DNA of 46,592 nt, taken from contig NZ_JAVDDV010000023.1 in assembly GCF_030848565.1 (NCBI RefSeq), positions 1 through 46,592 on the forward strand, written 5' to 3'. Position numbers and translations under genes: made by a program. The DNA comes from Natronolimnohabitans sp. A-GB9 (GTDB lineage: Archaea > Halobacteriota > Halobacteria > Halobacteriales > Natrialbaceae). The stretch's first letter is position 1; each line of letters opens with the position of its first letter. Below, one piece after another: positions 12,761 to 33,088 of this stretch. The notes beneath the pieces were generated by a model. It was not told the origin of the DNA and searched no databases. It saw only the letters and a program-made list of their open reading frames with translations.

Positions 12761-13534
12761 ATGACGACGGGAGACGGTCCAAACCGGCGGGTCAAGACGA
12801 CAGATACACTACTCGAGATCATCGACACGCTCCAGTCACTCGACGGGGCGACGCTGGCGGAACTGACCGACGAACTCGAGTACGCAAAGAGTACGCTTCA
12901 CAGCCACCTCTCGACGCTCGAGCACAACGAGTACGTGGTCCGAAACGGTGACGAGTACGAACTGAGTCTCAAGTTCCTCGAACACGGGATGTTCGTCAAG
13001 AATAGCGACGAACTCTCTCGAGTGGGTGGGCCGGTCCTCGAGGATCTCGCCGCAGAGACGGGCGAAGTCGCCTGGCTCATCGTCGAAGAACACGGAAAGG
13101 CCGTCTACCTCGACAAGGCGATGGGCGAAAAGGCCGTTCAGACGCACGCCAGCGTCGGCGGTCGAGCCCGGTTGCACCACCTCGCGACCGGCAAGTTGAT
13201 CCTGGCGTATCTCCCCGACGAGCGCGTCGACGAGATCATCGACTGTCACGGCTTGCCCGAACTGACACCACACACGATCACCGATCCCGACGAACTCCGG
13301 GCCGAACTCGAGGAGATCCGCGAGGACGGGATCGCGTTCAACGACAAGGAGACGGTAGATGGGCTGCGAGCGATCGGTGCTCCAGTTTTAGGCGAGGAGA
13401 CGGTTTACGGTGCGATCTCCGTCTCCGGGCCGGCGAATCGGCTCACCGTCGAGCGATGTCTGGAGGAGATCAAACCGCTGTTGCTCGAGGCCACGAACGA
13501 ACTCGAGTTGAAGTTGCAGTATCCGCCGAACTGA
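12761..13534 (+). CDS. IclR family regulator (1)
   Basis: A 257-residue IclR-type transcription factor. The winged helix occupies residues about 12-75 (LLEIIDTLQSLDGATLAELT, then YAKSTLHSHLSTLE), followed by the effector-binding domain, including GRARLHHLATGKLILAYLPDE and the late IGAPVLGEETVYGAISVSGPANR. IclR proteins often sense small organic acids or aromatic intermediates. The ATG at 12761 follows an AT-rich box inside GGAAATTATTTCC (12724-12736), a near-palindrome over the likely TATA element, so self-regulation is plausible. It reads toward the amidohydrolase/Rieske pair 286 bases downstream, its most likely target. Confidence 0.9.
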   Translation: MTTGDGPNRRVKTTDTLLEIIDTLQSLDGATLAELTDELEYAKSTLHSHLSTLEHNEYVVRNGDEYELSLKFLEHGMFVKNSDELSRVGGPVLEDLAAETGEVAWLIVEEHGKAVYLDKAMGEKAVQTHASVGGRARLHHLATGKLILAYLPDERVDEIIDCHGLPELTPHTITDPDELRAELEEIREDGIAFNDKETVDGLRAIGAPVLGEETVYGAISVSGPANRLTVERCLEEIKPLLLEATNELELKLQYPPN

Positions 13535-13820: not shown

Positions 13821-14954
13821 ATGGAGCCATCAGTAAGACGACTCGAAAGTGACGCGGAGGTTCCGGACGAGGCGTTCGAGGACGAGATCATCGATCTGGA
13901 CTTCCACGTCAATCCTCTCGAGGACGAGTTACTCGAATACGTCGAGGACGACCGCGCCTACGACAAGCTGACCACCGAGTTCGGCGCGACGCCGGTTATG
14001 GGGAAGTGGGACGCGGCCTACGGAATCAAAGAAGGGCAGGAAGGACTGTTCACCCAGGGACGTGCCAAATACGCGGAGGACGTCCAGGAGGCCTGTGAGT
14101 CGATCGCGGTCGACGAGCCGATCGTCAACGCAGGGATCAACAACCTCAACCACCAGCACCATCCCGTTCTGAAAAACGCCGTCGCGCAGGCGGCCAACGA
14201 CTACATGCTCGACCACTTCGCCGACGAGGGGATCTACACGTCGATGATGGTCCCGAAGTGGGATCCCGACTACGCCGTCGAAGAGATCGAGCGAATGGCC
14301 GACGAGAACAACATCGTCGGCGCCTACTCGTGGTTCGATCCGAAGGTGCCGTGGGGCAACGAACAGTTCGATCCCGTCTTCGAGGCGCTCGTCGAGCACG
14401 ACCTGCCGTTGCTTCTCCACGGCTCGCTGGCCTACTGGCCCCAACACTCCTACATCGGCGACGACATGCTGACGTGGACCGAGGTGCTCGGCTTCGACTG
14501 GCCGATCCACGCGATGGTCAACGTCGTCAACATGATCATGCGCGGGGTCTTCGACAAGTATCCCGACCTCGACGTCGTCATCCAGGAAGGTGGCCACTGG
14601 TGGGTGCCGTTCCTGCGCTACCGGATGGACGAGTTCTACGAGATGCACCCCGAGGACATCCAGATCACGCCCCGGAAGATGGACTCCGGCGAGCGATACC
14701 TCGAGCGTGCCCCAAGCGAGTATCTCCGTGACAACATCTACCTCTGTACGCAGCCGTTTGCGCTGCCACGGAACGCTCGCGAAGCGGAGAGCCTGCTCGA
14801 TCTCTCGATGGCCGACGATATGTTCATCTACTCCAGCGACTGGCCACACCAGACGCTCGACCCGCCGACGTGGTTCTACACCTCGCGAGCGTTCGACGAC
14901 CACACCAAAGAACAGATCCTCAGCGGGAACGCCAAAGAGATCCTCGACATCTAA
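13821..14954 (+). CDS. Amidohydrolase-2 family protein (1), metal-dependent
   Basis: A 377-residue TIM-barrel protein of the amidohydrolase_2 group, which includes ACMSD-type and aromatic-acid decarboxylases as well as hydrolases. Visible metal-site candidates are Asp27-x-His29 near the N-terminus, the His of LLLHGS in the middle, the His of EGGHWWVP, and the Asp of YSSDWPHQ near the end; the set looks complete. The Rieske ferredoxin gene follows after two bases, so the two are surely co-transcribed. A near-palindrome with arms TTGGT/ACCAA lies about 100 bases upstream. The substrate is unknown. A decarboxylase or hydrolase acting on an aromatic acid is the likeliest guess from the neighbours. 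Confidence 0.82.
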   Translation: MEPSVRRLESDAEVPDEAFEDEIIDLDFHVNPLEDELLEYVEDDRAYDKLTTEFGATPVMGKWDAAYGIKEGQEGLFTQGRAKYAEDVQEACESIAVDEPIVNAGINNLNHQHHPVLKNAVAQAANDYMLDHFADEGIYTSMMVPKWDPDYAVEEIERMADENNIVGAYSWFDPKVPWGNEQFDPVFEALVEHDLPLLLHGSLAYWPQHSYIGDDMLTWTEVLGFDWPIHAMVNVVNMIMRGVFDKYPDLDVVIQEGGHWWVPFLRYRMDEFYEMHPEDIQITPRKMDSGERYLERAPSEYLRDNIYLCTQPFALPRNAREAESLLDLSMADDMFIYSSDWPHQTLDPPTWFYTSRAFDDHTKEQILSGNAKEILDI

Positions 14955-14956
14955 TA

Positions 14957-15322
14957 ATGGTCGACAGAGACAACTTCACGAAAGTCGCAGAGGTCGGCGA
15001 CATTCCCGAGGGCGAAGGCGAGGGATTCGACGTCGATGGTATCGAGGTCGCCGTTTTCAACACCGGCGACGACTACTACGCGATCAACAATCGCTGTTCC
15101 CACCAGCGTGCTCCGCTGTGTAAGGCCGGCGACGAGAAGATCAACGCCGAAGACACCTGGACGGGAGAACGCGGTGGCCTCAACGCCGAAGCCTGTACGG
15201 TCTCCTGTCCGTGGCATCTCTGGGAGTGGGACCTGGAGACGGGCGAACACGAGGCGTCCGGACAGCGCATCGGGACGTTCGACTGCGTCGTCGACGATGA
15301 CGACATTCTAGTTCGTATCTGA
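14957..15322 (+). CDS. Rieske [2Fe-2S] ferredoxin-like protein (1)
   Basis: A 121-residue single-domain Rieske protein. The cluster ligands are Cys47/His49 (CSH) and Cys84/His87 (CPWH). The spacing between the two pairs is 34 residues, much longer than the roughly 15-17 usual for Rieske ferredoxins, and two extra cysteines (55 and 80) fall in the loop. The start at 14957 lies two bases after the amidohydrolase stop. Single-domain Rieske proteins usually feed electrons to ring-hydroxylating oxygenases or nitrite reductases. No oxygenase alpha subunit is encoded in the window, so its partner is unknown and may be the amidohydrolase-linked process itself. Confidence 0.85.
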   Translation: MVDRDNFTKVAEVGDIPEGEGEGFDVDGIEVAVFNTGDDYYAINNRCSHQRAPLCKAGDEKINAEDTWTGERGGLNAEACTVSCPWHLWEWDLETGEHEASGQRIGTFDCVVDDDDILVRI

Positions 15323-15382
15323 ACGAGTCGGCCGCCTTCCGGTTTCGATCGGCTCGAACGAGCCGTACGCGTTTCTAGTAAT

Positions 15383-15403
15383 ACTGCCAGACAGTAGTCC
15401 GTA
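15383..15403 (+). repeat. 21-bp motif, copy 1 (ACTGCCAGACAGT then 1 nt and GTCCGTA)
   Basis: This motif begins with a near-palindrome (ACTGCC-A-GACAGT) and ends in GTCCGTA. Two more copies in the same orientation lie at 24554-24574 and 33105-33125. It resembles the palindromic ends of the 110-bp dispersed element. Here it lies between the convergent Rieske and FAD/Fe-S oxidase genes, so a promoter role at this copy is unlikely. Confidence 0.5.
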
Positions 15404-15480
15404 TGAAACGCCGAAGCCGAACACCGCCTCGAGTGATCGATCCTCGACTCCCACGAACGAAAGAGCGAGCTGACCGTGCG

Positions 15481-18400
15481 TTACCGCGGGAGCGCGTAGG
15501 CCAACAGTTCGACCGGGGTCGGCGGCTCCTCACCGTCGAGGTCGCTCCCGGACAGCGAACTGCCGGCGGGAACCGGCTCGAGGCGTTTGTCCCCGAGTTG
15601 GGTCCGACAGGAGGTTCCGGGTGCGGTGACGACGGTCGCGTCGCTGTCTTCGATCTGATCGACGAGGATGTCGCCGATCGACTGGCTTAGCGAGTAGTGT
15701 TCGGCCTCGTAGCCGAAGCTCCCGGCCATCCCACAGCAGCCCGAATCGAGCGGATCGACCGCATAGCCTGCCCGTCGGAGCACGCCGACGGCGTGGTGGT
15801 CTTTCTTCGTGGCCTTCTGGTGGCAATGCCCGTGGTAGGCAAGCGAATCCGACGGCGCCGCCCAATCGACGTTCTCGTCGAGGCGGAACGTATCGAGGTA
15901 CTCACAGACGCCGTAGGTGTTCGCCGCGACCGACTCGACGGTAGGCCCGCCAAGCAGGTCGAGCGCGTCGGACTGGAACATCACGGCGTCGGAGGGCTCC
16001 GCGAGGACGACGTCCCATCCCGCTTCGACGCGAGGTGCAAGTTCGGCGGCGTTTGCACGCATCGTCTCGCGGGCTTTGTCGACGAACCCCTTCGAGAGTG
16101 CCGGTCGGCCGCTGTCGGTCCGTCTGGCGACGTCGACGTGGACGCCGGCGGCCTCGAGGACGCGAATCGTCGCCTTCCCGACGGCGGGATGGCTGTAGTT
16201 GGTGTAGGTGTCGACGAAGAAGACCGCCTTTCGCTCGGCTTCAGCCTCGGAAACTCGCGAGCCACCGCGGGCCTCGAACCAGTCCTGGACCGTCTCGCGG
16301 TGGAACTCCGGCAGCGACCGCTCGCGTGCGATGCCGACGGTCTTTTCGGCGACGGTTCCGGCGCCGGGAAGCGAGTCCGCGAGATTCGAAAGCGGCGCGA
16401 GGGCACTGCCAAGCGGTGCGAGCCGATCGAAGTTGGCAAAGAGCTTGTCCCGGAGGCTGGCACCGTGTTCCTGGTGGCGGGCGTGTTTGACCTCCGTCTT
16501 GAGCTTGGCCATATCGACCTCGCTCGGACAGTCACGCGCACAGCCCTTACAGCCGATACAGAGGTCGAGCACCTCTTCGACGAACTCGTCGTCGGTAGGG
16601 TCGTCTGGCAACTCGCCGCTCATCGCGTTTCGGAGGAGGTTCGCGCGACCACGGGTGGCCGTGACCTCCTCTTCGGCGGCACGGTAGGTCGGACACATCA
16701 CGCCGCCGGTCGTCTCTTGGTCGCCCCGACAGCCACCGCAGCCGTGACAGAGCTCGACCATGCCCTGCATGCCGTTTTCGTTGTCCCAGTTCAAGGCGGG
16801 GTCGAAACCGGCGTCGTGACTGTAGTCGCTGTCGTACCGGAGGTTCTCGGTCATGTCGTGGTCGCCACAGATGTTCCCCGGGTTGAGCAGCCAGTCGGGA
16901 TCGAACGCCGACTTCAGGTCACGGAACGTCTGCCAGAGGTTCTCGCCGTAGAGTTTCCGGTTCCACTGAGTTCGGGCGCGGCCGTCGCCGTGTTCACCAG
17001 AGACGGAGCCGCCGAACTCGACGACCATGTCGGTCACTTCGTCAGCGATTTCGACCATGTCCGTTCGGTCCTCGGCGGACTTCGTGTTCACCAGTGGGCG
17101 AACGTGGAGGACACCCGGCCCCGCGTGGGCGTAGAAGGCCGCGTCGACGTCCCGATCTTTCTCGACTAGCAGCGACTGGAACCCCTCGACGAACTCGGGG
17201 AGGTGTTCCGGCGGGATCGCACAGTCCTCCATGAAGCTAATGTGTTTCTCGTCGGAGGTTCGCGAGAGCAAGATCGGGAGGCCGGCCTTGCGTAGCTTCC
17301 AGAACTGCTCGCGTTCGTCTTCGGCGTGGGCCTCGAGTCCTTCGAAGGCGTGGATCTCGTCGATGTTCGGCCGGTCTACAGGCGGTTCGGCTTCGCTGTC
17401 GCTTCCGGGCACACGGTCGGCAAGGAGACCGGCGGTCTGTTCCCGGCCGTGGTCGTCGTCGGCGGCGTAGAACTCGACGAGCAGCGCCGCCTGAGCACCG
17501 TCGGGGACGAGTGCCGCGATCTCTTCGAACTCGGCCGTCTCACGCGCCAGTCCGATGAGCACGTCGTCGATGAGTTCGACCGCCGCCGGCTCGTGTTCGA
17601 GGACGTGCTGGACGTCCGTGACGGCCTCGAGGACGCTCTCGTAGAACAGCAGCGAGACCGCCTTCGTCTCCGGAACCGGCTCGAGGGAGACTTCGGCCTC
17701 GGTGACGACGGCCAGTGTCCCTTCGCTGCCCGCGAGCAGGCGCGCGAGATTGACGGTTCCGGAGCCGGCCTCCTCGACGAGCATGTCGAGATTGTAACCG
17801 GAGACGTTGCGTTTCAGATTAGGAAACCGGTCGCGAACCTCGTCGGCTTCCTCGTCGATGATCCGGACGACCTCGGCCGAGACGCGTTCGAGGATGTCAC
17901 CGTCGGGATCGGCTTGCTCGCGCAGTTCCGAGACGTCGGTCTCGCCGAGCGTGGCGACTGTCCCGTCGGCCAACACGACTTCACACTCCTCGATGTAGGC
18001 GTCGGTCTTCCCGTAGACCAGCGAGTGAGCGCCCGTCGAGTTGTTCCCGATCGCGCCGCCGATGGCGCTGCGGTTGCCCGCTGCCGGGTCGGGAGCGAAC
18101 TTCAGTCCATGGGTGGCGAGTGCGTCGTTGAGTTCCTCGAGCACAGTCCCCGATTGGACACGGGCCCGCCGATCGTCGGGATCGATGTCGACGACGGCGT
18201 CCATGTGGCGGGTGAAATCGAGGACGACCGCCTCGTTGACCGCCTGGCCGGCGAGGCTCGTTCCGCCGCCCCGTGGCAGGACTGGGATCTCCCGCTCGGC
18301 ACAGTAGGAGACGACGGCAGCGACGTCGTCGGTCGACGTCGGAAAGACGACGCCGATCGGCGTCTCCTGGTACGCGCTGGCGTCGGTCGCGTACAGCTGT

Positions 18401-18564
18401 CGGGTGTAGGTGTCGAATCGGACGTCGCCATCGATCCGACCCTCGAGGTCGGCGACCAGATCCGGTCGGTCGATGTCGTCCGATACGTAGTCGTAGCCGG
18501 CCCGCTCGTCGGCTGCCGGCTCGGAATCGTTCTCGTCGAGCGATGTGGTTGGGCTCGCAGTCAT
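15481..18564 (-). CDS. FAD- and Fe-S-binding oxidoreductase (D-lactate/2-hydroxyacid dehydrogenase type, 1)
   Basis: A 1027-residue three-part enzyme. The N-terminal FAD_binding_4 domain (about 65-225) has RGGGTSLAGQAV and the nucleotide loop GNNSTGAHS. The FAD-oxidase C-terminal domain spans about 250-540. Then come two 4Fe-4S motifs (CHGCGGC with a later CPTY, and CIGCKGCARDCP, about 620-720). The last third is a CCG domain with HGHCHQK and DSGCCGMAGSFGYE. This layout is that of membrane-linked D-lactate or 2-hydroxyacid dehydrogenases that pass electrons to the quinone pool. A close paralogue lies at 42667-45657. The true substrate cannot be read; glycolate, D-lactate or 2-hydroxyglutarate are options. 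Confidence 0.85.
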   Translation of the reverse strand: MTASPTTSLDENDSEPAADERAGYDYVSDDIDRPDLVADLEGRIDGDVRFDTYTRQLYATDASAYQETPIGVVFPTSTDDVAAVVSYCAEREIPVLPRGGGTSLAGQAVNEAVVLDFTRHMDAVVDIDPDDRRARVQSGTVLEELNDALATHGLKFAPDPAAGNRSAIGGAIGNNSTGAHSLVYGKTDAYIEECEVVLADGTVATLGETDVSELREQADPDGDILERVSAEVVRIIDEEADEVRDRFPNLKRNVSGYNLDMLVEEAGSGTVNLARLLAGSEGTLAVVTEAEVSLEPVPETKAVSLLFYESVLEAVTDVQHVLEHEPAAVELIDDVLIGLARETAEFEEIAALVPDGAQAALLVEFYAADDDHGREQTAGLLADRVPGSDSEAEPPVDRPNIDEIHAFEGLEAHAEDEREQFWKLRKAGLPILLSRTSDEKHISFMEDCAIPPEHLPEFVEGFQSLLVEKDRDVDAAFYAHAGPGVLHVRPLVNTKSAEDRTDMVEIADEVTDMVVEFGGSVSGEHGDGRARTQWNRKLYGENLWQTFRDLKSAFDPDWLLNPGNICGDHDMTENLRYDSDYSHDAGFDPALNWDNENGMQGMVELCHGCGGCRGDQETTGGVMCPTYRAAEEEVTATRGRANLLRNAMSGELPDDPTDDEFVEEVLDLCIGCKGCARDCPSEVDMAKLKTEVKHARHQEHGASLRDKLFANFDRLAPLGSALAPLSNLADSLPGAGTVAEKTVGIARERSLPEFHRETVQDWFEARGGSRVSEAEAERKAVFFVDTYTNYSHPAVGKATIRVLEAAGVHVDVARRTDSGRPALSKGFVDKARETMRANAAELAPRVEAGWDVVLAEPSDAVMFQSDALDLLGGPTVESVAANTYGVCEYLDTFRLDENVDWAAPSDSLAYHGHCHQKATKKDHHAVGVLRRAGYAVDPLDSGCCGMAGSFGYEAEHYSLSQSIGDILVDQIEDSDATVVTAPGTSCRTQLGDKRLEPVPAGSSLSGSDLDGEEPPTPVELLAYALPR

Positions 18565-19049
18565 AACTCGGTCAGTTGACGGTCTCGGGGGTCCCCGCAG
18601 TTCTCGCGGCGGGGGCGCGTTCGATCTCGTGTCGATCCAGTCCGTAGCATCGCGTCATGGATTCCCATTTCCAAAGCGGGCAGGTAACGTTGACGTTTTG
18701 CTCCGCGTGTGCGCGTTGGACACCGGTGACCGCTGTACTGAACCGACCGCCCGACTCGAGATGGCGCCGTCCGGGCGGAGCGGTCGTGTCGACGTCACCG
18801 GTACCGATGCGGTCTCGCTGTCCCCGCTCGAGGCATTGCTCGAGTCTCGGGGACGGCAACTGCTCGATGTCGATAGCCATGTGTGCCACTATATTACATC
18901 ATGGCCGGTATAAGGATTCCTACTGTCCATCATTCTCCTCATCTTTGCCAATATGTAATGGGTTTCTCGGAACATGATCGATCATGTTGTATTTCTACGG
19001 CGGCAGTAGCTTTATTAGAACTGCGGACCCGTATTTTGGGTATCAACGA
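18565..19049. other. Intergenic region between oxidase and thioesterase genes
   Basis: No gene is assigned in these 485 bases. Open frames exist on both strands (for example 18657-18977 on plus), but none has the haloarchaeal amino-acid bias throughout. The divergent promoters of the FAD/Fe-S oxidase and thioesterase genes must lie here, with the palindrome at 18971-18988 listed separately. Confidence 0.4.
18971..18988. promoter_or_regulatory. Perfect 18-bp palindrome, candidate operator
   Basis: AACATGATCGATCATGTT reads the same on both strands. It lies just upstream of a TATA-like element (tttatta, about 19010-19016) that would serve the thioesterase start at 19050. The position is typical for an activator or repressor site. 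No second copy was noticed elsewhere in the window. Confidence 0.5.
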
Positions 19050-19445
19050 ATGAGTTTCACACGCACTTGGACCGTCCGGTTCTCGGATACGGACCCGTTC
19101 GGTATCGCTCACTATCCGCGGATGATCGACGTGATTCACGAGACCTCGGATATGTTCATGGAAGAGATCGGCTGGCCCTACTGGGAACTCCACGAGGAAC
19201 ACGAATTAGGTCTTCCACTCGTCTCGATGGATTTCGATTTCCACGGTCAGATCGAAGGCGGCGACGTCGTCGAGATCGAACTCGACGCGACCGTCGGGGA
19301 GTCGAGCGTCCAGTTCGACTACCGGGCGATCCACGACGGTGAGGTCGTCTTCAGCGGAACCGAACACCGGGTGTGTGTCCCGATCAACGGTGATGGCGGC
19401 GTGTCAGTTCCCGACGACCTCCGCGATGCGCTCGAGAGCGTCTAG
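19050..19445 (+). CDS. 4-hydroxybenzoyl-CoA thioesterase-like hotdog protein
   Basis: A 131-residue acyl-CoA thioesterase of the hotdog fold. The signature RFSDTDPFGIAHYPRMIDVIHE carries the catalytic Asp of the 4HBT class (Asp-Pro-x-Gly-x-x-His/Tyr). The family hydrolyses aromatic or short-chain acyl-CoA thioesters. The start at 19050 was preferred over an upstream ATG at 18984 because the TATA-like element at about 19010-19016 places transcription start near 19040. It stands alone between the FAD/Fe-S oxidase and a region of decayed repeats, but the nearby CoA ligase and aldehyde dehydrogenase make a role in aromatic CoA-ester turnover sensible. Confidence 0.85.
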   Translation: MSFTRTWTVRFSDTDPFGIAHYPRMIDVIHETSDMFMEEIGWPYWELHEEHELGLPLVSMDFDFHGQIEGGDVVEIELDATVGESSVQFDYRAIHDGEVVFSGTEHRVCVPINGDGGVSVPDDLRDALESV

Positions 19446-19556
19446 TGGCGGTCTCTCGGATCGCCATCGACTCTCGTACTGCGGCCGGAACGCGACGACC
19501 TCTCATAGACCGCTCACACTATCGTAACCACTGAACGGTAGTGTACACCCGATCGC

Positions 19557-19772
19557 TTGCGGGACGCGCGGATCGATGCGACCACCGGGAGAACCGCGAA
19601 CTGGCTGGCGGGGACCGGTGTGCGCCGTGTGCCGTGCGATCGGTGTGGACCCGTCCGACGGTCACTCACCGTTGCGAGCGCGTACAGCGCCTTGGCGATG
19701 GGTGTTACCATCGCGAACAGGACGGTCGTCGACGGGTTACTCGAAGCCCCTCTGTGTATCGATTATGTTTGA
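19557..19772 (+). pseudogene. Decayed copy of a small CDRC-motif ORF
   Basis: A short frame (from a TTG) encodes RIDATTGRTANW and CDRCG, matching the neighbouring frame at 19809-20144 (RVDATTG, ANW, CDRC). Upstream DNA also aligns: the stretch near 19521-19560 matches that near 19852-19890 without gaps, but in this copy the equivalent frame has a stop and a shift. It therefore looks like a degenerate tandem copy. Function is unknown. Confidence 0.4.
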
Positions 19773-19808
19773 CACACTCACTCATGGGGGGAGGAGTTAC
19801 ATAAATCC

Positions 19809-20144
19809 TTGCAATACGACGACGGTGTCACTCATCGCGTCGAGGAAACGCTCTATAGTAGCCACTGGCCGTCGGTGCAAACTGATCGCACGAGGGGAGC
19901 GCGGGTCGATGCGACCACCGGAACGAGCCCTGCGAACTGGCGAGCAGGGGCTGACGTAACCTACGAACTCTGCGATCGGTGTGTGCATCGTTTCAGTTGT
20001 TACTCTAGTCTCTCTGGACCGCTGTCTATCGTGCCGGCGCGACCGCAAGATGGGCCGCGTCGGGAACTCGATGCAGCGGTCCGTATCGTGATAGTAGTTA
20101 CTCGCTGTGGCCGTTATCGTTCTCGCCGTCCGTTTTTTCACTGA
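19809..20144 (+). CDS. Hypothetical 111-residue protein, CDRC motif
   Basis: An open frame with the conserved core RVDATTGTSPANW, then AGADVTYELCDRC. It is the more intact of two tandem copies. Only two cysteines of a possible metal site sit in the motif. The C-terminal third (Arg-rich) does not look haloarchaeal, so the true stop or frame may differ and the gene may itself be decayed. No function can be offered. Confidence 0.3.
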   Translation: MQYDDGVTHRVEETLYSSHWPSVQTDRTRGARVDATTGTSPANWRAGADVTYELCDRCVHRFSCYSSLSGPLSIVPARPQDGPRRELDAAVRIVIVVTRCGRYRSRRPFFH

Positions 20145-20236
20145 GACGGATCGGAACGGATCCGTGTCCGTTGTCGATCGTGGCAAAAAGTCATATACCA
20201 CTGGGATTAATGGTAACGCTGTACGAACACCAATCC

Positions 20237-20632
20237 ATGACGACGATCTTACTCAGCATCGATACGAACGTCGAACGGGCGAACGAACAGGTCGAGTCGA
20301 TAACCGAACTCCCACTCGATACGACGGAGACGCAGATCGTCCTCTATCACGTCTTCCGGGCGGACGACGAAGGCGCTGACGCGAGAAATCTCAAGTCGGT
20401 CGCTGCGGCGGTGGAGCAACTCGAGGACGCCGGCTTCGACGTCGAGGTCGCCCAGTCGAGTGGCGATGCCGTGCCGAACATTCTGGACAAAGCCGACGAA
20501 CTCGACGCCGACCTCATTAGTCTCGCGGGCCGAAAGCGATCTCCGACCGGGAAGGCCCTGTTCGGGAGCGTCACGCAGGACGTGATTCTGAAATCCGACC
20601 GGACGGTGTTGCTCGAGACGACGAGTAGCTGA
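20237..20632 (+). CDS. Universal stress protein (UspA) family
   Basis: A 131-residue single UspA domain. It has the N-terminal strand TILLSIDTNVE and the C-terminal nucleotide-loop region AGRKRSPTGKALFGSVTQDV, which fits the G-2x-G-9x-G(S/T) pattern loosely and suggests possible ATP binding. The start at 20237 aligns with family proteins; upstream ATG codons at 20210 would add a non-conserved tail. A TATA-like element lies at about 20192-20200. UspA proteins beside transporters are common in haloarchaea, and the YjiH-type carrier gene follows after 173 bases. Confidence 0.85.
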   Translation: MTTILLSIDTNVERANEQVESITELPLDTTETQIVLYHVFRADDEGADARNLKSVAAAVEQLEDAGFDVEVAQSSGDAVPNILDKADELDADLISLAGRKRSPTGKALFGSVTQDVILKSDRTVLLETTSS

Positions 20633-20805
20633 TCGGCGGTGTCCGCTTTTTCGAATCGAGGTGACTCGAGTAGCACCGTTGTACGACACTACCATTATAA
20701 TTCTCACATTAAAATAAAAAAGTATGTATACTATGATTGTTCTCATAATACATTATCCGACATATGATCGGTGTTTTTATTACCCATGGGGCGGTTTGTC
20801 GAACC

Positions 20806-22266
20806 ATGTTTGGGGGTCAAGCCTGGGAAGATGACGAACACATATCAGGCGAGTCAGTGACACCTGAGGAGAAGTCGATCGACGACGTCGATTTCATCGA
20901 CAAAGGATGGAGGGCAACGCTGAAATTCATCGTCGCGTTCGCGACCGGTGCGTTCGTCTTCCTGTTCCCGATCCAGTGGGACGGGCAGACGACGATTCCA
21001 CTCGACGTGATGATGACGCTGCTCCAGAACGCGTCGATGTTCGCCGTCGAGATGTTCACGCTGGGGCTTCTCATCGCAGGTGGTGTGTTCACGACGATCG
21101 CGGAGCTGCACTACCGCAGAGTGTACACTGTGAGCGAACGAGTCGAGGAGTGGTTCGAACTCGACTACTGGCGAACGTCGAAGCCGTTCTGGGCGCTTCG
21201 AGTCATCGGCGCTGTCCTCGGGGTGGCAATCCTACTCGAGGCCGGCCCCGGTTGGATGTTCGCCGATCCGGTTGTCGGGACTGCCTGGAGCGCCCTCGCG
21301 ATCACGGTCGCACTCGTGATTCCGCTGGGGGCGATCTTCGTCAACTTACTCGCCGAACTTGGCGGTCTCCAGTTCATTGGGACGCTCGCCCAGCCGCTCA
21401 TGCGGCCGTTTTTCAATCTGCCCGGCCGGTCGGCACTCGACAGCGCGGCCTCGTGGCTCGGCTCGTTCAGCATCGGCTACTACCTGACCCGAAACGTCTT
21501 CGACCGCGGTGGTTACAACAAACGCGAAGTGTTCGTGATCTGTACGTGCTTCGCGACGGCGAACCTGGGGACGGTGGGGGCCGTCGCAGCGGTGTTGGAA
21601 ATCCTTCACCTCTTTCCGATCATCGTGGCGCTTTACCTCATCGCAACCCTCATCGTCGCCGCGATCCTCGCTCGCATTCCGCCGCTCTCGACGGTTCCGG
21701 AAGAGTACGTCGCCGAGCCGAATCCCGAACCGCGGTTTACCGGCACGGTCGGTGATTACTTCCGATTCGCCTTCAACGAGGGCGTGAAAACGGCGAAGAA
21801 AGGTGACTCGATCGCGCGCGCTTCCGTCGTCGGCTTCATCGACGGGATGAAACTGGCCGGAATGATCATCGGGACGGTGTTGACGATCGCGATGACCGTG
21901 CTCCTGCTCGAGCATTACACCGCGTTCTTCGCGTACATCTCTGCCCCGTTCATCCCGCTGATGAACATTCTCGGCATTCCGGACCCGCAGATGGCCGCGA
22001 CGGGCATCATCGCCGGTGGCGCGGAGTACTTCATCGGCGCGACGATGGTCGTCGAGGCCGACGTGCTCACGCAGGTGTTCGTCGTGATCGTCACGAGCGG
22101 ACAGGCGATCTTCATCGCAGCGTCGGCGCCGATGATGGTGGACATGTTCGACGACGTTCCCATGCGGTTCCGTGACCTGCTGCTCTTGCTCGTCCTACGG
22201 ACTGCATTCCTCATCCCCGTCGCTGCGGCCCTGACACATGCCGCTGCGTACGTGGGCCTCATCTAA
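20806..22266 (+). CDS. YjiH family membrane protein (nucleoside-recognition/GATE domain)
   Basis: A 486-residue membrane protein with about 11 hydrophobic segments. It resembles the YjiH group, which carries the nucleoside-recognition (GATE) domain found in many uncharacterised transporters. Family-like stretches include PLMRPFFNLPGRSALDSAASW, GGYNKREVFVICTCFATANLG, and a repeat of the motif in the second half near PFIPLMNILGIPDPQMAATG. The start at 20806 was preferred over 20764 because the TATA-like run (ttttatta, about 20774-20781) overlaps the longer version; a leaderless start results. Substrate unknown; uptake of an organic solute is likely given the neighbours. Confidence 0.75.
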   Translation: MFGGQAWEDDEHISGESVTPEEKSIDDVDFIDKGWRATLKFIVAFATGAFVFLFPIQWDGQTTIPLDVMMTLLQNASMFAVEMFTLGLLIAGGVFTTIAELHYRRVYTVSERVEEWFELDYWRTSKPFWALRVIGAVLGVAILLEAGPGWMFADPVVGTAWSALAITVALVIPLGAIFVNLLAELGGLQFIGTLAQPLMRPFFNLPGRSALDSAASWLGSFSIGYYLTRNVFDRGGYNKREVFVICTCFATANLGTVGAVAAVLEILHLFPIIVALYLIATLIVAAILARIPPLSTVPEEYVAEPNPEPRFTGTVGDYFRFAFNEGVKTAKKGDSIARASVVGFIDGMKLAGMIIGTVLTIAMTVLLLEHYTAFFAYISAPFIPLMNILGIPDPQMAATGIIAGGAEYFIGATMVVEADVLTQVFVVIVTSGQAIFIAASAPMMVDMFDDVPMRFRDLLLLLVLRTAFLIPVAAALTHAAAYVGLI

Positions 22267-22916
22267 CTGGGACCCACGCGCGGTCCGCGCCGTTTTCCGA
22301 ATCGCTCGTCGAGTGTGTCGATTCGCTGTGTCGCCCGTCATGGCATGTGGCGGCCGTCGTTCGTTTTTTGTTGTCGTGATCCGATCCGATCCGATTCGGA
22401 TCGATTCGGCAACCACACGCTCGGTTCTGACTCGAGACACTACTGCTCGTAACTGTCGAACGATCTCATCGAAACCTCCGCTTTATCCTCTGGCTGTAAT
22501 TTATATGCCTCTACGGGTTACCAGAGAAATACAGAACCTTATATTTCTTCGACCATGTATTATAACTAAAACCCAGTTCGCTGTCGGCGTTCTCGAGCGT
22601 ATTCGATAGTCGCCCAGTGTTTCTCACGAATATTATCGACATAGTGGGTGGGAGACGAGGAAAAGTACGCTATCCAGTGAAGTCCATAACAAATGAAGAA
22701 TGGACGGTAGTCGGGAACACGTTGGACGAACGTATACGGTGATACGGATCAGCAGTCGATACGTTCGACACTATCGATTGGCGTCGATCACGCGAAAAAT
22801 CGGCTATCGACAGGTCGTCGGTTCGAGGCCAACGATAGCCCGGCAAACCGGCGATAGTGAACCGCGGTCGAACGGTCGGCGACGGCGTTACCGATTCGAA
22901 ACGCGGACGACCCGTC
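22267..22916. other. Intergenic region between convergent YjiH and aldehyde dehydrogenase genes
   Basis: No gene or repeat is recognised in these 650 bases. The flanking genes converge, so two terminators are expected, but no strong hairpin with a T-run was seen. AT-rich stretches near 22500-22560 resemble former promoter DNA. Confidence 0.35.
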
Positions 22917-24386
22917 TTAGAACGGGTACTCTCGTTGCTCTCGCTGGATCGAGACCCACTTCGTTCGCGTGAACTTCCGCAGGATCGCTTCGGCGTTGTA
23001 CCGACCCATACCCGACGCGCCGACGCCGCCGAACGGCACGTGTGGCTCGTCGTTGATCGGCTGGTCGTTGATGTGGATCATGCCGGTCTCGACGCGGTCC
23101 GCAATGTCGCGGGCGCGCTCTAAGTCGCCGGCGTGGACGGCACCGGAGAGGCCGTACTCGGTGGCGTTTGCCATCTCGACGGCCTCGTCGTCGTCGGAGA
23201 ACGGAATCACCGGTGCGACCGGACCGAAGTGCTCGTTACACGCGGCAGCCATGTCGTTGGTGACGTCCGACAGCACCGTCGGTTCGATGACCAGACCGTC
23301 GGCTTCGCCGCCGGTCTCGAGAGTTGCGCCGGCCTCGACGGTTTCCTCGATGAACTCGAGGACCGTATCGCGCTGGGTTTCGTTGATGATCGGGCCGACG
23401 ACGACCTCGTCCAGTTCGGTGCCGGCGGGCAGCTGCGCGGCACGTTCGGTGAGCCGCTCGACGTACTCGTCGTAGACGTCCTCGTGGACGAGGTGGCGGT
23501 TGATCGAGATACACACCTGTCCCTGGTGCATGAACGTCCCGAAGACGCCAGCGTCGACGGCCTGCTCGAGGTCGGCATCGTCGGTGACGATGTGGACGTT
23601 GTTGCCGCCCAGTTCCAGCGCCGGCTCGGCGAAGTTTTCGGCGGCTCGCTGGGCGACCTGTCGGCCGACTTCGGTCGAGCCGGTAAACGCGACGACCTCC
23701 GCGCGCTCGTCGCTCGCGACGGCGTCACCGACGGTCGAGCCCGGACCGGGGACGACGTTGAGCAGTCCGTCCGGGAGGCCGGCCTCCTCGAAGATGTCGG
23801 CCAGGAGCAGTCCGCCGGTGATCGGCGTGTCTCCGGCGGGTTTGAGGACGACCGCGTTTCCGAGCGCGAGCGCCGGCGCGACAGCACGCATCGAGAGGTG
23901 GAACGGGAAGTTCCACGGCGAGATGACCCCGACGACGCCGACGGGTTCGCGTTCGACGACGTTTTCCTTGCCCGGGATGATCGACTTCTCGTGGTCGCCA
24001 CCGTCACGGAACGGGAAACTCGTCGCGACGTTCATCATCCCCGTAGCGAGTTGGACCTCCTTTGCTCCCTTCGGGACGATGCTCCCGGCTTCGCGTCCGA
24101 GGAGATCTACGACTTCGTCCTGCCGTTCCTGCAGTCGCTCGACTGCGCTCTCGATGACGGCAGCTCGCTCCTGTGGCGGCGTCTGTGCCCACTCGGTCTG
24201 TGCCTGTTCGGCGACTGCGTAGGCCTCGTCGACGTCGTCCTCGGTCGCCTGTGGGATCGTCGCGACGACCTCACCCGTCGCCGGGCTGGTAACCGTCGTC
24301 TCCGCTGCGCCCTCGGGTTGGCGCCACTCACCGTCGATGTACAGTCCGTTCCACTTCGTTTCGGCGTCCGTTGTCTGTGAACTCAT
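22917..24386 (-). CDS. NAD(P)-dependent aldehyde dehydrogenase (benzaldehyde/vanillin-type)
   Basis: A 489-residue aldehyde dehydrogenase. The catalytic Cys292 lies in GQVCISINR, the general base Glu258 in LELGGNN, and the cofactor-binding stretch GVISPWNFPFHLS is present; the oxyanion and FGPV regions are also recognisable. The overall look is that of aromatic aldehyde dehydrogenases, which oxidise benzaldehyde-type substrates to acids. The ATG at 24386 gives a natural start; a longer version adds six residues. A TATA-like run on the reverse strand at about 24437-24445 implies a leader of about 28 bases. It lies downstream of the second amidohydrolase-Rieske pair on the same strand but with its own promoter. 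Confidence 0.9.
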   Translation of the reverse strand: MSSQTTDAETKWNGLYIDGEWRQPEGAAETTVTSPATGEVVATIPQATEDDVDEAYAVAEQAQTEWAQTPPQERAAVIESAVERLQERQDEVVDLLGREAGSIVPKGAKEVQLATGMMNVATSFPFRDGGDHEKSIIPGKENVVEREPVGVVGVISPWNFPFHLSMRAVAPALALGNAVVLKPAGDTPITGGLLLADIFEEAGLPDGLLNVVPGPGSTVGDAVASDERAEVVAFTGSTEVGRQVAQRAAENFAEPALELGGNNVHIVTDDADLEQAVDAGVFGTFMHQGQVCISINRHLVHEDVYDEYVERLTERAAQLPAGTELDEVVVGPIINETQRDTVLEFIEETVEAGATLETGGEADGLVIEPTVLSDVTNDMAAACNEHFGPVAPVIPFSDDDEAVEMANATEYGLSGAVHAGDLERARDIADRVETGMIHINDQPINDEPHVPFGGVGASGMGRYNAEAILRKFTRTKWVSIQREQREYPF

Positions 24387-24553
24387 GTGTTGTGAACCGG
24401 CCACATGCGTGACCTACACCTAGGTACTCGCGTCGTCCAAATAAAACCATCCCTATCGATCGACCGAAAACCCGAACGAGAAGTGAGTACTGGCACGTCG
24501 TCGATACAGCCCTCTGTCTCGAACACCCGCAGCCGGGTCGCGGGTGTGCCGGT

Positions 24554-24574
24554 ACTGGCGGACAGTCGTCCGTA
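24554..24574 (+). repeat. 21-bp motif, copy 2
   Basis: It reads ACTGGCGGACAGT, one base, then GTCCGTA, matching the copies at 15383 and 33105 at 18 of 21 or better in the best-conserved comparison with copy 1. It lies in the gap between the Rieske stop (24633) and the aldehyde dehydrogenase promoter, about 110 bases upstream of that gene's TATA-like element. The wider match with copy 3 includes GTGCCGG just before it. Confidence 0.5.
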
Positions 24575-24632
24575 GACGGGTGTAATACCCTGCGCGGAGC
24601 TGTCGACGGATGTGGCTACTATCGTTCGAGTG

Positions 24633-25013
24633 TTATTGCTGGCCGTCGACGTAGACGACTCCGTCTTCGACGACGACGTCGAACGTCGGAAGGACGATGT
24701 CGTCGTCGGCGAGTTGCTCGCCCGTCTCGAGGTCGTACGACCAACCGTGCCACGGACAGGAGATGATCGGCTCGTTGTCGTCGTAGTCTTTCTCGACGCG
24801 CTTGCCGGGTTCGACGAACTCGCCGACGAGTTTCCGGCTGACCTGCCCTTCGGCGACCGGACCGCAGTCGTGGAGACACCGGTTCTGGACGGCGTGGAAC
24901 TCACCGTTGACGCGGAGAACGCCGACTTCGATGCCGTTTACGTCGACGAGTTCGCGATCGCCCTCTTCGAACTCCGATTCGGGTTTGACTTCGATCAGTT
25001 CCGTCGTGCTCAT
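24633..25013 (-). CDS. Rieske [2Fe-2S] ferredoxin-like protein (2)
   Basis: A 126-residue single-domain Rieske protein. Ligands are Cys46/His48 (CLH) and Cys86/His89 (CPWHGW), with an extra Cys50. The loop between ligand pairs is 37 residues, again much longer than in standard Rieske ferredoxins. Its start overlaps the stop of the upstream amidohydrolase by four bases (ATGA), so translation is coupled. It mirrors the pair at 13821-15322, but the two Rieske proteins are only distantly alike, so the pairing is conserved more strongly than the sequence. Likely role: electron carrier or redox partner for the same unknown reaction. Confidence 0.87.
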   Translation of the reverse strand: MSTTELIEVKPESEFEEGDRELVDVNGIEVGVLRVNGEFHAVQNRCLHDCGPVAEGQVSRKLVGEFVEPGKRVEKDYDDNEPIISCPWHGWSYDLETGEQLADDDIVLPTFDVVVEDGVVYVDGQQ

Positions 25014-26128
25014 AGGTCGAACACCTCCTGTGCGTTACCCGAGAGGATCTGCTTTTTCTCGTCTTCCGAGAGGAACGGGAGGTCGGTGACCGTCGTCGGT
25101 CGGTCGTAGTCCCAGTGTGGGTAGTCCGAAGCGTACATCAGGCTGTCGGCACCGACCATGTCGAAACACTTCTCGAGGTATTCGGGGTCGGCCGAGATCT
25201 CGAGGGGCTGGGTGCCGTAGTAGAAGTCCTTGATGTACTCGCCGGGCTTTTTCTCGAGCAGCGGCGCTTCTTCGGGGCGCTTGAGGTACTCCTCGTCGAG
25301 TCGCGTGATCAGGCCGGGGATGTAGGTGATGCCCGACTCCATGAAGACGATGTCCAGGTCGGGGAACTTCTCGGGGACGCCCTGGACGACGAGGCTGACG
25401 ATCTGAGACATGTTCGACTCCAGGAAGCCGAGCGTGTGGGTCTCGAGCATCTCCTGGTAGCCGGCACGGACGTACTCGTCGAGACCGGCACCGCCGGTGT
25501 GGAAGACCGCCGGAAGGCCGAGCTCTTCACACCGCTCGTAGAGCGGGTCGTACTTGCGGTTGCCAAGCGGTGGCGTCGCACCGGCGGTGACGAAACAGGC
25601 ACCGACGTATTCCTCTTCGCCTTCGATCCGATCGAGGATCTCGAGGGAGGCGTCGACGTCGCCGTAGGGGATGGGCGCGAGCCCGTGAATGCCGTCGTCG
25701 GGGTCGAGGACCTCCTCTTGCATGTACTCGACGTAGGCCTTCGCGAACGCGCTCTGGCGGTCGTCGTCGGCGGTCGTTCCGGCGCCCGCGAGGATGAGAT
25801 GCGAGATCAGCAGCGTCTCGTCGACGCCGATGGACTCCATCCCTTCACGGATCCGCTCGGGCGTCTCGGGCTCGTCTGGGTACGAGGAGTGTTCGCGGGT
25901 GATCTTCCCGTGGGCCTGGCGGTCGCCGGTCGAGAAGGGGAAGAACGAACTGAGGTTTTGCTTTGCGCCTTTCTCGTCGAAGTTGCTCTCCTCGAACTTC
26001 GTCTTCCAGGGCTCTTCCATGTACTCGGCGACGTCGTGGAACGACTCCATGTAGTGACAGTCGCCGTCGATGACGTGATACCGGTCTAGTGCCTCTTGAT
26101 TCGGCTGGCTCTCGTCGGATTCCAGCAT
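25010..26128 (-). CDS. Amidohydrolase-2 family protein (2), metal-dependent
   Basis: A 372-residue amidohydrolase_2 protein. The N-terminal metal motif is Asp23-x-His25 (VIDGDCH), the mid-barrel His is in AVFHTGG, and the late Asp is in MYASDYPHWD. The His that copy 1 shows in EGGHWW is replaced here by ESGITYIP, so the metal site or the substrate may differ. The C-terminus, KKQILSGNAQEVFDL, closely matches that of copy 1. It is the first gene of a two-gene unit with the Rieske protein. The start at 26128 has a TATA-like box about 25 bases upstream on the reverse strand, with a palindrome beside it (listed separately). Confidence 0.83.
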   Translation of the reverse strand: MLESDESQPNQEALDRYHVIDGDCHYMESFHDVAEYMEEPWKTKFEESNFDEKGAKQNLSSFFPFSTGDRQAHGKITREHSSYPDEPETPERIREGMESIGVDETLLISHLILAGAGTTADDDRQSAFAKAYVEYMQEEVLDPDDGIHGLAPIPYGDVDASLEILDRIEGEEEYVGACFVTAGATPPLGNRKYDPLYERCEELGLPAVFHTGGAGLDEYVRAGYQEMLETHTLGFLESNMSQIVSLVVQGVPEKFPDLDIVFMESGITYIPGLITRLDEEYLKRPEEAPLLEKKPGEYIKDFYYGTQPLEISADPEYLEKCFDMVGADSLMYASDYPHWDYDRPTTVTDLPFLSEDEKKQILSGNAQEVFDL

Positions 26129-26387: not shown

Positions 26388-27191
26388 TCAAATCCAGGGA
26401 CGATCTCCGTCGGGGTACTCCGCGTGGACGTTGACTTCGATGGCGTTTGCCGCCCGCATGACCTTCTCCGGGAACTCCTCGCGGAAGCGGTCGCCGCTCC
26501 AGTTACTCGCCGACCCCGAGAGACTGACTGCTCCGAGGACGTGCTCACCGTCGTAGAGGATCGGAGCGCCGACCGCACGGATCCCCTGCATCTGTTCCTG
26601 ATCGTTCAGTGCGAACCCGCGTTCCCGGATGTCCTCGAGTTCCGCGGCGAGTTCGTCGGGATCCGTGATCGTCGAGGACGTATAGGAGACGAGCCCGTGG
26701 TCGTGGATGATCTCCGCGACTCGGTAGTCCGGCATGTGGGCGAGAATCGCCTTCCCCGCCGAAGTACAGTGGAGGTGGGTCTGTGGCCGGTCTCGTTTCC
26801 GTGGATGAAACTCCGTCCCGATCGCGTCCTCGCCGAACGCCTCGTGTAACACGACCAGTCGGCCGTCGTACTCGGTCATGAGGTGTGCGGTGGCGTTGCT
26901 GCCGTGTGCGAGTCGGTGGAGCTCCGCTTTGGCGGCCCGATAGAGGTCGTTTTGCAACCGAACGTGTTCCCCGTAGGGTAGTAGCTCGAGGCCGAGTCGG
27001 TACTCCCCGTCGTATTTGCGGACGAATCCACGTGACTCGAGGGTCGCGAGATACGTGTGTGCCGTCCCTGGCGACAATCCGACGGCGTCGGCTAGCGCCG
27101 AAACCGTCGTTCCTCCTGTCTCTCGCAGGTGCTCGAGGATGTCACAGACCCTATCGGCGGACTGAATTCGTCGCGGTTCGTCCGGGCTCAT
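26388..27191 (-). CDS. IclR family regulator (2)
   Basis: A 267-residue IclR-type regulator with a winged helix (SADRVCDILEHLRETGG, then GLSPGTAHTYLATLESR, residues about 10-75) and an effector domain ending near 250 (TSAGKAILAHMPDYRVAEI and the late GAVSLSGSASNW). The start at 27191 (MSPDEPRR) was chosen over an ATG 33 codons upstream, since the extra part is hydrophobic and unlike the family. It lies upstream of the amidohydrolase/Rieske unit 2 on the same strand, with a gap of 259 bases. Its upstream gap of about 0.9 kb holds two repeats of other kinds. Confidence 0.88.
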   Translation of the reverse strand: MSPDEPRRIQSADRVCDILEHLRETGGTTVSALADAVGLSPGTAHTYLATLESRGFVRKYDGEYRLGLELLPYGEHVRLQNDLYRAAKAELHRLAHGSNATAHLMTEYDGRLVVLHEAFGEDAIGTEFHPRKRDRPQTHLHCTSAGKAILAHMPDYRVAEIIHDHGLVSYTSSTITDPDELAAELEDIRERGFALNDQEQMQGIRAVGAPILYDGEHVLGAVSLSGSASNWSGDRFREEFPEKVMRAANAIEVNVHAEYPDGDRPWI

Positions 27192-27708
27192 ACTGCAGGC
27201 GATGGCTCCGAGGTCCAAGACTCTTTTGCTCACATCAAACGGTCCGACCGACTTCGGATAACCATACAAAATAGCGATAGCTAATCGCACTGCATGAAAC
27301 TACAGTTTTCACGTATATCTCGTAAATATACTCTTGCTATGACTGGTAGGAATATCATAGTGACGACTGAACCGGGTTACCTATCCGATCGACTTGGTAT
27401 TGGCGTCCAGGTGGTAACCACGAGTTGAACGTCCGGTGTGTTCGTCGTACGTTCGACCGTTCCTTACATCCATACTACTGTAAATTCTGAACGGACGTTG
27501 GAATCATCGACGCAGTATCTAGCTATCTCCCCACTATATTCGGGCGAATTACAAAAATCGTCCAAAACGAGTGTACGGATATTTGTGTAACGCGATATGC
27601 CAATCTTTCGAGTATTGTAATACACAAGTCTTGAATCCGAGTGTCCGCGCGTACGCGTATTCACGGCGTGTCCGTCGTACTGTACATCTCTTCCCGCTGT
27701 CCAAACCG

Positions 27709-28941: not shown

Positions 28942-30177
28942 ATGAGCGGAGATACGACTGATAAACCAGCACTGGTCGCGGGCGCTGGACCCGTCGGTAT
29001 GACGGCCGCACTCGCGTTGAACGCACGCGGTATCGATACGGCGATCCTCGAGGCGGAGCCAGAGGATCGGGACCGAGCGGGAAGCCGCGCGATCTACGTC
29101 CACGGCGCGACGCTGCGGACGTTCGAGCGAATCCATCCCGGGCTCGGTACGGACCTCGTCGACGAGGGCCTCGTCTGGCCGACTCGCCGAACGCTGTACA
29201 AGGGCAAGGAAGTATTCAACCGGACGTACAACTCGCCGGGTGGATCGGGTGACATCCCACACTTCACCAGCATTCCACAGGTCGTCACCGAGCAGTACAT
29301 GCTCGAGGCACTCGAGGAAGCCGGCATCGAGATCCACTGGGAGTCGGAGGTCGCCGCCGTCGACTCCTCGCCCGACGGCGTCACCGTCGAGACGACCGAC
29401 GGCGACGTGTGGGAAACGGAGTATCTGATCGGTGCTGACGGCGCCGGTTCGACGGTTCGCAAGGAGATCGGCGCGAACTTCGAGGGCGATCAGTCCGAGA
29501 ACGCCTTCATCATCGCCGACATCGAGGACGAGGAGATCGACGACGATCACCCCGACCTCGAGCGGCTGTTCCACTACGATGCACCCGAAGCCGACGGTCG
29601 CAACGTCTTGCTCGTCCCCTTCACGGGCGGCTGGCGGCTCGACATCCAGTGTATCGAGGGCGACGACCCCGAAGAACTCAGCAGCGAAGAGCGGATGCGG
29701 GAGTTCGTCAGCGACATCATGGGCGAGGAGTACGCCGACGACCTGCAGTGGGTCTCGACGTATCACTTCCTTCAGGTCCAGGCGGACACGTTCGTCGACG
29801 AACACCGCCGCGTGCTGCTCGCCGGCGAGGCGGCCCACCTGCTTGCCCCCTTCGGTGCACGCGGGATGAACTCCGGGGTTCCAGACGCTGACGAGGCCGC
29901 CTCGGCCATCTCGGTCGCACTCGACGCACAGACGGAAGCAGTCGCACACAACGAAGTCGAACTGTTTGCGGCACGCCGCGAGAAGGCCGCCGAGTACAAC
30001 ATCGGCGCGGCCGGCCAGGCCCTCGAGTACCTCCAGGGCGACGACCCGGTGACGGTGCTTCGCAAGGAGGTCGCCGCCGAGATGTCCGACCACTTCGAAA
30101 CCGCCGGTGAGTGGCTCGACGACGCACCGTACGGCCCCCACGAGGGGCCACCGATCGTCTCGACCGGCAACTACTAA
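28942..30177 (+). CDS. FAD-dependent aromatic monooxygenase (PHBH type)
   Basis: A 411-residue single-component flavoprotein hydroxylase. The FAD/NADH fold begins with GAGPVGMTAAL (residues about 14-24), the second motif GADGAGSTVRKEIG is near 160, and the third is AGEAAHLLAPFGARGMNSG (about 290-308), with GE in place of the usual GD. The family hydroxylates phenolic acids or related aromatics using NAD(P)H and O2, often to give gentisate-like diphenols. The ATG at 28942 follows a palindrome-like GTGGACAACCAC (28894-28905) and a weak TATA-like element. It lies 0.8 kb upstream of the SDR and cupin genes, which could be its partners. Confidence 0.87.
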   Translation: MSGDTTDKPALVAGAGPVGMTAALALNARGIDTAILEAEPEDRDRAGSRAIYVHGATLRTFERIHPGLGTDLVDEGLVWPTRRTLYKGKEVFNRTYNSPGGSGDIPHFTSIPQVVTEQYMLEALEEAGIEIHWESEVAAVDSSPDGVTVETTDGDVWETEYLIGADGAGSTVRKEIGANFEGDQSENAFIIADIEDEEIDDDHPDLERLFHYDAPEADGRNVLLVPFTGGWRLDIQCIEGDDPEELSSEERMREFVSDIMGEEYADDLQWVSTYHFLQVQADTFVDEHRRVLLAGEAAHLLAPFGARGMNSGVPDADEAASAISVALDAQTEAVAHNEVELFAARREKAAEYNIGAAGQALEYLQGDDPVTVLRKEVAAEMSDHFETAGEWLDDAPYGPHEGPPIVSTGNY

Positions 30178-30374
30178 GCGCGCACTGAAACCGTTTTCCG
30201 CGGTCGACACTCGTTTTCGACGGACTGGCTCCGACTACCGGTTCACTCGAGTACGACGTCTCGAATGTGAGCCACAGCCCTCGCCGACTCTGCCTTCTGA
30301 TCTTCGATGGACAGCAGCGCGACTCGTCGATCGATGCCTATGAAAAGGAGACAGGTCGTTCGATCTCCAGTCTG

Positions 30375-30698
30375 TTAGACCAGATCCAGTCGCTTGGCGA
30401 CCCAGTGGTCACGGGCGGCCAGCACGAACGATTCCTCGTCGTCGAACTCGGTCGACTCGGCGACGAACTCGTCCCACCGGCCGTGGGGGACGGTCTCGAG
30501 GTCGGCGGCGGAGTCGGCCTCGCTTGGACTGGCTGCGACCAGTTCGTCGAACGACCCGAACTCGGTTCGTTCCTGAACGAACGCGTCGTCGAACACGTCT
30601 TCGATCGGGACTTCCTCGTCTTCGTCGTAGACGTCGTCGACGTCCGGAAGGTCCTCTTGCTTCGCTGTAACGTCCTCGATGTCTGTCTCGAGTACCAT
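30375..30698 (-). CDS. Hypothetical acidic protein
   Basis: A 107-residue protein with very many Asp and Glu and no known domain by eye (start MVLETDIEDVTA). It has no membrane segment or signal. The start at 30698 was chosen over an upstream ATG at 30737, whose extra residues read as a non-conserved hydrophobic tail. It lies between the monooxygenase and SDR genes on the opposite strand, so it is not part of their operon. The codon and acidic composition fit a genuine haloarchaeal gene. Confidence 0.5.
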   Translation of the reverse strand: MVLETDIEDVTAKQEDLPDVDDVYDEDEEVPIEDVFDDAFVQERTEFGSFDELVAASPSEADSAADLETVPHGRWDEFVAESTEFDDEESFVLAARDHWVAKRLDLV

Positions 30699-33063: not shown

Positions 33064-33088
33064 TACTCCCGAACAACCACGACTCGTC

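Follow-up and report, generated by a model that had tools for sequence, protein, structure and literature searches.

Contig NZ_JAVDDV010000023.1 of the haloarchaeon Natronolimnohabitans sp. A-GB9 carries two genes for amidohydrolase-fold proteins, each paired with a gene for a single-domain Rieske ferredoxin, and the question that this locus raises is what reaction such pairs carry out. The window that we analyzed, 46,592 nucleotides, is the entire contig (C16) of a 4.3 Mb genome, so that its ends are the contig ends. On the plus strand, a gap of 2 bases separates AH1 (13821-14954, 377 amino acids; Pfam PF04909, E 8e-24) from Rieske1 downstream of it (14957-15322, 121 amino acids; PF00355, E 1e-14). 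On the minus strand, AH2 (25010-26128, 372 amino acids; PF04909, E 6e-36) overlaps Rieske2 (24633-25013, 126 amino acids; PF00355, E 4e-14) by 4 bases. The open reading frames (ORFs) and Pfam matches confirm both pairs as an earlier note on this DNA had described them, including the gap, the overlap, and the 34- and 37-residue spacings between the Rieske ligand pairs (C-x-H-x34-C-x2-H in Rieske1 and C-x-H-x37-C-x2-H in Rieske2). The two Rieske proteins are indeed only distantly alike (36% identity; 31% for AH1 and AH2), and both contain the extra cysteines that had been remarked on, but these are not invariant across the partner Rieske family. A third amidohydrolase-Rieske pair of the same genome lies on contig C31.

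Our analysis indicates that the window ‘amidohydrolases’ very probably belong to a recently described family of oxygen-activating hydroxylases, the AibH2/SfbO type or amidohydrolase-related dinuclear oxygenases (AROs), and that their Rieske neighbours very probably act as electron donors. We consider it highly likely that the two genes of each pair form an oxygenase system, in which an ARO-type TIM barrel with a dinuclear site, supplied with electrons by the Rieske ferredoxin, activates O2 and hydroxylates a small organic substrate. The earlier note had described the pairs as lacking an oxygenase partner. This holds in that no ring-hydroxylating dioxygenase is encoded on the contig, but, judging from the closest structures and the ligands, the amidohydrolase is most probably itself the oxygenase, and the ‘missing’ partner would therefore be encoded in the window. 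We examined fold, ligand positions, gene pairing, co-divergence, and the lack of pairing for non-ARO amidohydrolases; all statements on function rest on homology to a few characterized proteins.

The ARO class (AibH2, PtmU3, SfbO) was described between 2021 and 2024, together with its close association with small Rieske proteins (PMC7782822, PMC10401708, PMC10811679). Hydroxylation of 2-aminoisobutyrate by AibH1H2 involves a Rieske ferredoxin, AibG, and a reductase, AibF, and all components are needed in cells (PMC7782822). AibH2 uses a Mn/Fe site, and of 555 AibH2-like proteins listed, 90% have an adjacent small Rieske gene, with haloarchaea marked on the 2023 tree (PMC10401708). Four AROs picked by their Rieske pairing have redox-active diiron sites, one of them hydroxylates a C-H bond, and the class was named in that work (PMC10811679). 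The window pairs and the C31 pair are new members of this published class; the pairing itself has been on record since 2023-24 (PMC10401708, PMC10811679), also for haloarchaea.

Both window proteins have a PF04909 TIM-barrel fold that is nearer to AROs than to decarboxylases. The closest sequences to AH2 in the PDB are all AROs, namely 8sm7 (E 1.7e-44), AibH2 (6m1w_B, 6.6e-38), and SfbO (8sm6, 1.7e-34), whereas PF04909 decarboxylase structures are matched at E values of only 1e-10 to 1e-8. AH1, which belongs to an archaeal ‘SDWPHxT’ clade, matches AROs at E 1e-31 to 1e-23 (closest 8sm7/8sm9), compared to about 1e-13 for LigW/gamma-resorcylate decarboxylase. Its AlphaFold model (mean pLDDT 84) finds SfbO (8sm6) as the best PDB match, with TM scores of 0.79/0.84, and SfbO, AibH1H2, and other ARO entries fill the first 20 places, with LigW2 behind them.

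The six metal-ligand positions of AibH2 (D25, H27, H211, E265, D337, and H340; PMC7782822) are kept in AH1 (D27, H29, H200, E256, D340, and H343), in AH2 (D23, H25, H210, E264, D335, and H338), in the C31 copy, and in essentially every full-length paired homologue. The residue equivalent to the second-sphere Asp342 of AibH2 is also kept in AH2 (D340) and in the C31 copy. By comparison, the genome's four other PF04909 proteins lack both the D-x-x-H motif near the end and a Rieske neighbour, a pattern that AH1 and AH2 do not fit. We are confident that AH2 is an ARO; AH1 probably is one as well, with a less certain catalytic status because it has threonine at the Asp342 position.

The earlier note had instead proposed a redox-linked decarboxylase or hydrolase system not yet described, in which the amidohydrolase would catalyze a non-oxygenase step and the Rieske protein would play some other redox role. 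PF04909 does include decarboxylases, hydratases, and hydrolases (PMC10811679). However, the ligand set and the closest relatives are those of oxygenases, and the characterized Rieske-linked relatives hydroxylate C-H bonds (PMC7782822, PMC10811679), which makes this alternative very improbable. Of the original proposal, the redox link stands; the ARO ligand set and closest relatives replace the decarboxylase or hydrolase, and the class is one already published. A decarboxylase reading as such was rejected on the closest structures and the ligand set.

If the amidohydrolases are AROs, are the Rieske genes their true partners? The gene layout places a small Rieske gene next to AH1 and to AH2 on the same strand, consistent with one transcription unit in each case, as for AROs. 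A survey of other genomes bears out the claim of a conserved pairing, with 112 unique amidohydrolase-Rieske pairs in archaea and bacteria. The two genes share a strand in 109 of these, and the Rieske gene is the downstream one in 105. At the cut-offs used, 44 of 146 genomes of the order contain an AH2-like match and 36 an AH1-like match (these sets overlap, as do the genome samples between searches). A single-domain Rieske gene is directly beside the amidohydrolase gene in 28 of 30 haloarchaeal AH2-like loci, and Rieske1 is paired with AH1 orthologs in other haloarchaea. Where an amidohydrolase gene has no Rieske gene within 1 kb, it is in many cases the AibH1-like first gene of a bacterial amidohydrolase-amidohydrolase-Rieske tandem. 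In this and related genomes, four of five ARO loci have a Rieske neighbour, compared to none of 28 non-ARO PF04909 loci. Taken together, the third pair on C31, the 112 unique pairs, and the lack of Rieske neighbours at non-ARO loci show that the pairing is not due to chance.

The two partners also diverge together. Distances between amidohydrolases correlate with those between their Rieske partners (r = 0.90 for 108 pairs and r = 0.82 for the 57 archaeal ones, where permutations reached at most 0.12 and 0.17, respectively), where part of the correlation is shared descent of whole genomes and paralogous pairs within one genome are included.

A signature of the Rieske partners is the spacing between the two ligand pairs, which is 31-38 residues in 108 of the 112 pairs and about 16-25 residues (counted by eye) in the other Rieske domains of the genome. 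The long loop is thus a trait of the ARO-linked Rieske family and not peculiar to Rieske1 and Rieske2. In the AlphaFold model of Rieske2 (mean pLDDT 94.5), the insert, residues 57-85, is predicted to fold into a beta-hairpin with two long strands, 57-65 and 74-85. Apart from this hairpin, Rieske2 has an ordinary Rieske ferredoxin fold, and its Foldseek matches are dioxygenase and toluene-monooxygenase ferredoxins. We infer that the hairpin docks towards the oxygenase.

Several observations weigh against assigning both pairs to AROs. The Zn-binding, non-catalytic AibH1 subunit carries the same six ligand letters (SDYPHKHH), and because the letters are identical, we no longer take them to prove a dinuclear site. 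At the position of AibH2 Asp342, AH1 has Thr345. No AibF-type (PF00175) reductase and no dioxygenase-type (PF14759) reductase were detected in the genome by searches that succeed in control genomes, which leaves the electron chain incomplete on paper. Finally, Rieske-dioxygenase-like ORFs on contigs C24 and C39 might use the window ferredoxins.

The first two points bear on AH1. In AibH2, the Asp342-to-Ala mutant has diminished activity (PMC10401708), so that this residue is important in AibH2, although it is not stated to define the family. Threonine occupies this position throughout the AH1 clade, Marine Group IV copies included, with alanine in one member, and the aspartate is also lost in AibH1 and AibH1-like bacterial partner subunits (Q, H, or N). 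In a midpoint-rooted tree, AH1 falls within an archaeal-only clade with Marine Group IV members (support 100/100) on a long, separate branch. An alternative drawn from these features is that AH1 is an AibH1-like mononuclear subunit or a specialized redox enzyme, leaving only AH2 and the C31 copy as true AROs. We regard this as unlikely, though it deserves serious weight. AH1 keeps the six ligand positions, its model is closest to SfbO, and a separate Rieske gene and regulator accompany it, whereas AibH1-like subunits occur in tandem with a catalytic AibH2. AH1 orthologs are also found in two genomes (G138 and G104) in which no other ARO was found. With its own Rieske gene and regulator and its occurrence without AH2, AH1 is therefore likelier to be a stand-alone enzyme than a silent subunit. 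We also considered AH1 and AH2 as one AibH1H2-like heteromer; this is unsupported, as the two come with separate Rieske genes and orthologs of AH1 are found without AH2.

The other points bear on the ferredoxins. Could Rieske1 and Rieske2 instead be general ferredoxins for the dioxygenases on other contigs, with the amidohydrolases being ordinary decarboxylases or hydrolases that lie alongside by chance? The ORFs on C24 and C39 fit this explanation, as do the closest solved folds to Rieske2, which are dioxygenase ferredoxins. However, in archaea as in bacteria the Rieske gene is paired with that of the amidohydrolase and co-diverges with it, the amidohydrolases match AROs rather than decarboxylases, and non-ARO PF04909 genes are never paired in our sample, so we give this explanation hardly any credence. 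Ferredoxins of ring-hydroxylating dioxygenases are recognized by an alpha subunit and a reductase nearby, and neither is on the contig, which encodes no further Rieske protein. A ring-hydroxylating oxygenase just outside the window that uses these ferredoxins, which the earlier note had allowed for, does not fit the assembly: the contig ends with the window, and dioxygenase-type ORFs are located on other contigs (C24 and C39). The dioxygenase-ferredoxin reading was rejected on the missing dioxygenase on the contig and the strong co-divergence of Rieske protein and amidohydrolase. Separately, contig C18 contains an apparent toluene-monooxygenase-like cluster, here in a haloarchaeon (L003, G000:C18:4415-7675), with TmoB-, TmoC-, and TmoE-like ORFs, judged by reading the ORFs.

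Returning to the ARO assignment, we propose the following scheme, modelled on the characterized relatives. Electrons would pass from a donor to the Rieske ferredoxin and from there to a putative dinuclear site (Mn/Fe or Fe2) in the ARO-type TIM barrel. This site would activate O2 for hydroxylation of a small organic substrate. The two pairs probably act on different substrates within a catabolic island that is under IclR control and also encodes a gentisate pathway.

The genes around the pairs describe this island. An IclR-type regulator gene (PF01614/PF09339) is directly upstream of AH1 (12761-13534, plus strand), in the same order and with 81% identity in locus L076, and another is directly upstream of AH2 (26388-27290, minus strand; PF01614/PF09339), a position that it also has in L096, L097, and L099 and, slightly further off, in L098. 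An aldehyde dehydrogenase gene (22917-24404, minus strand; PF00171) follows Rieske2 after 228 bp on the same strand; related genes are near several other pairs, and it is possible that the product is a follow-on enzyme. Beyond AH2 lies a gentisate-type aromatic cluster (28942-36115) that encodes a flavin monooxygenase, a short-chain dehydrogenase/reductase (SDR), a gentisate 1,2-dioxygenase-like double cupin, a fumarylacetoacetate (FAA) hydrolase, and an AMP-CoA ligase, with synteny in L096-L099. The AH2 pair occurs with flavin monooxygenase, SDR, gentisate-dioxygenase-like, and FAA-hydrolase genes in Natronolimnohabitans, Natronococcus, Haloterrigena, and Halegenticoccus, not every gene being present in each, and in L097 both window pairs are in one island.

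Gene context does not allow a single substrate to be named, because the neighbours of AH2 relatives vary between genomes; in others they adjoin SsuA/NMT1-type importers or genes for 2-oxoacid dehydrogenases or thiamine diphosphate (ThDP) enzymes. A mandelate-like route for the substrate is speculation. Near AH1 orthologs there is a PF17645 gene (arylmalonate decarboxylase type), at L076:11374-12138 by Pfam and at L078:6843-7601 by clustering with the L076 gene, which could hint at the substrate class of AH1. The window also encodes two large GlcD/GlpC-type fusions of FAD dehydrogenase and iron-sulfur protein (15481-18564 and 42667-45657); one is convergent just after Rieske1 and is kept with the island in L097-L099. 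A lactate permease gene (39110-42515) is split into two parts (39110-39982 and 41754-42515) by a transposase-like ORF (40136-41560), an insertion into the transporter gene.

Among marine archaea, two metagenome-assembled genomes of Marine Group IV (Hikarchaeia lineage), about 1 Mb each, have seven ARO-Rieske pairs per genome (L205-L211 in G032 and L212-L218 in G018), apparently the same seven paralogs in both, and one of the seven is AH1-like. We deduced the lineage from named loci (L107-L109 and L111-L116) with matches to the same sequences. Aromatic compounds are brought up as possible substrates in the paper on Hikarchaeia, the main text of which does not refer to amidohydrolases or oxygenases (PMC7599335). 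Seven pairs suggest that these archaea invest heavily in an ARO route to dissolved organic matter.

Directly downstream of the third pair of our genome is a gene for a small acidic protein (C31:7684-8115, minus strand; L091) of 143 amino acids, with a conserved WW and a PPRF-x-D motif. Members of this family (110-145 amino acids) occur in 24 of the 146 genomes of the order, all 24 among the 44 with an AH2-like ARO (p ~1e-15 by the hypergeometric distribution, without correction for relatedness), and their genes are mostly within ~1 kb of an ARO gene. In a phylum-wide sample, the family is again confined to ARO-bearing genomes (9/9). It has no Pfam or NCBIfam match and no credible PDB match. 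Possibly it is an accessory or coupling protein, with a role similar to that of coupling proteins in other diiron monooxygenases. In the open-access literature that we searched, both the seven-pair Marine Group IV genomes and this family look new.

If the ARO assignment is correct, automated annotation as hydrolases would conceal a large number of enzymes that activate O2, both in haloarchaea and in marine archaea. It also changes the predicted chemistry of the island, to C-H hydroxylation feeding aromatic or organic-acid catabolism, and provides halophilic candidates for studying Mn/Fe oxygen chemistry. We suggest only tentatively, as a possibility that we ourselves doubt, that archaeal AROs are their own set of oxygenase systems whose features are new to the literature, with a deep archaeal-only AH1 clade of altered second coordination sphere, a reductase supply of neither AibF nor dioxygenase type, a hairpin-marked ferredoxin, and a third small protein of the C31 type that is perhaps coupling-like.

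How do the window pairs compare to known systems? SfbO and three other characterized AROs (PDB 8SM6-8SM9; PMC10811679) share with them the PF04909 TIM barrel, the six ligand positions, and a lone gene of the catalytic type with a small Rieske gene beside it. AH1 differs from these in its low identity (~25%) and in having threonine for the second-sphere aspartate, and the setting is haloarchaeal, without the AibF-type reductase families. AibH1H2GF of Rhodococcus wratislaviensis (PMC7782822, PMC10401708) likewise combines an AibH2-like catalytic protein with a Rieske ferredoxin in a single unit, and an aldehyde dehydrogenase gene is close by. However, the window pairs have no tandem AibH1-like subunit and the genome has no AibF-like FMN/2Fe-2S reductase, so the three-component arrangement is not reproduced. 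PtmU3 (PDB 6OMP), which AH2 matches at E 7e-11, belongs to the same superfamily and is a dinuclear monooxygenase with a TIM barrel, but is more distant and biosynthetic (platensimycin). Finally, the ferredoxins of dioxygenases and toluene 4-monooxygenase (CarAc, BphA3, NdoA, and TmoC) have the same single-domain Rieske fold, whereas the ARO partners are set apart by their longer inter-ligand spacing and extra beta-hairpin.

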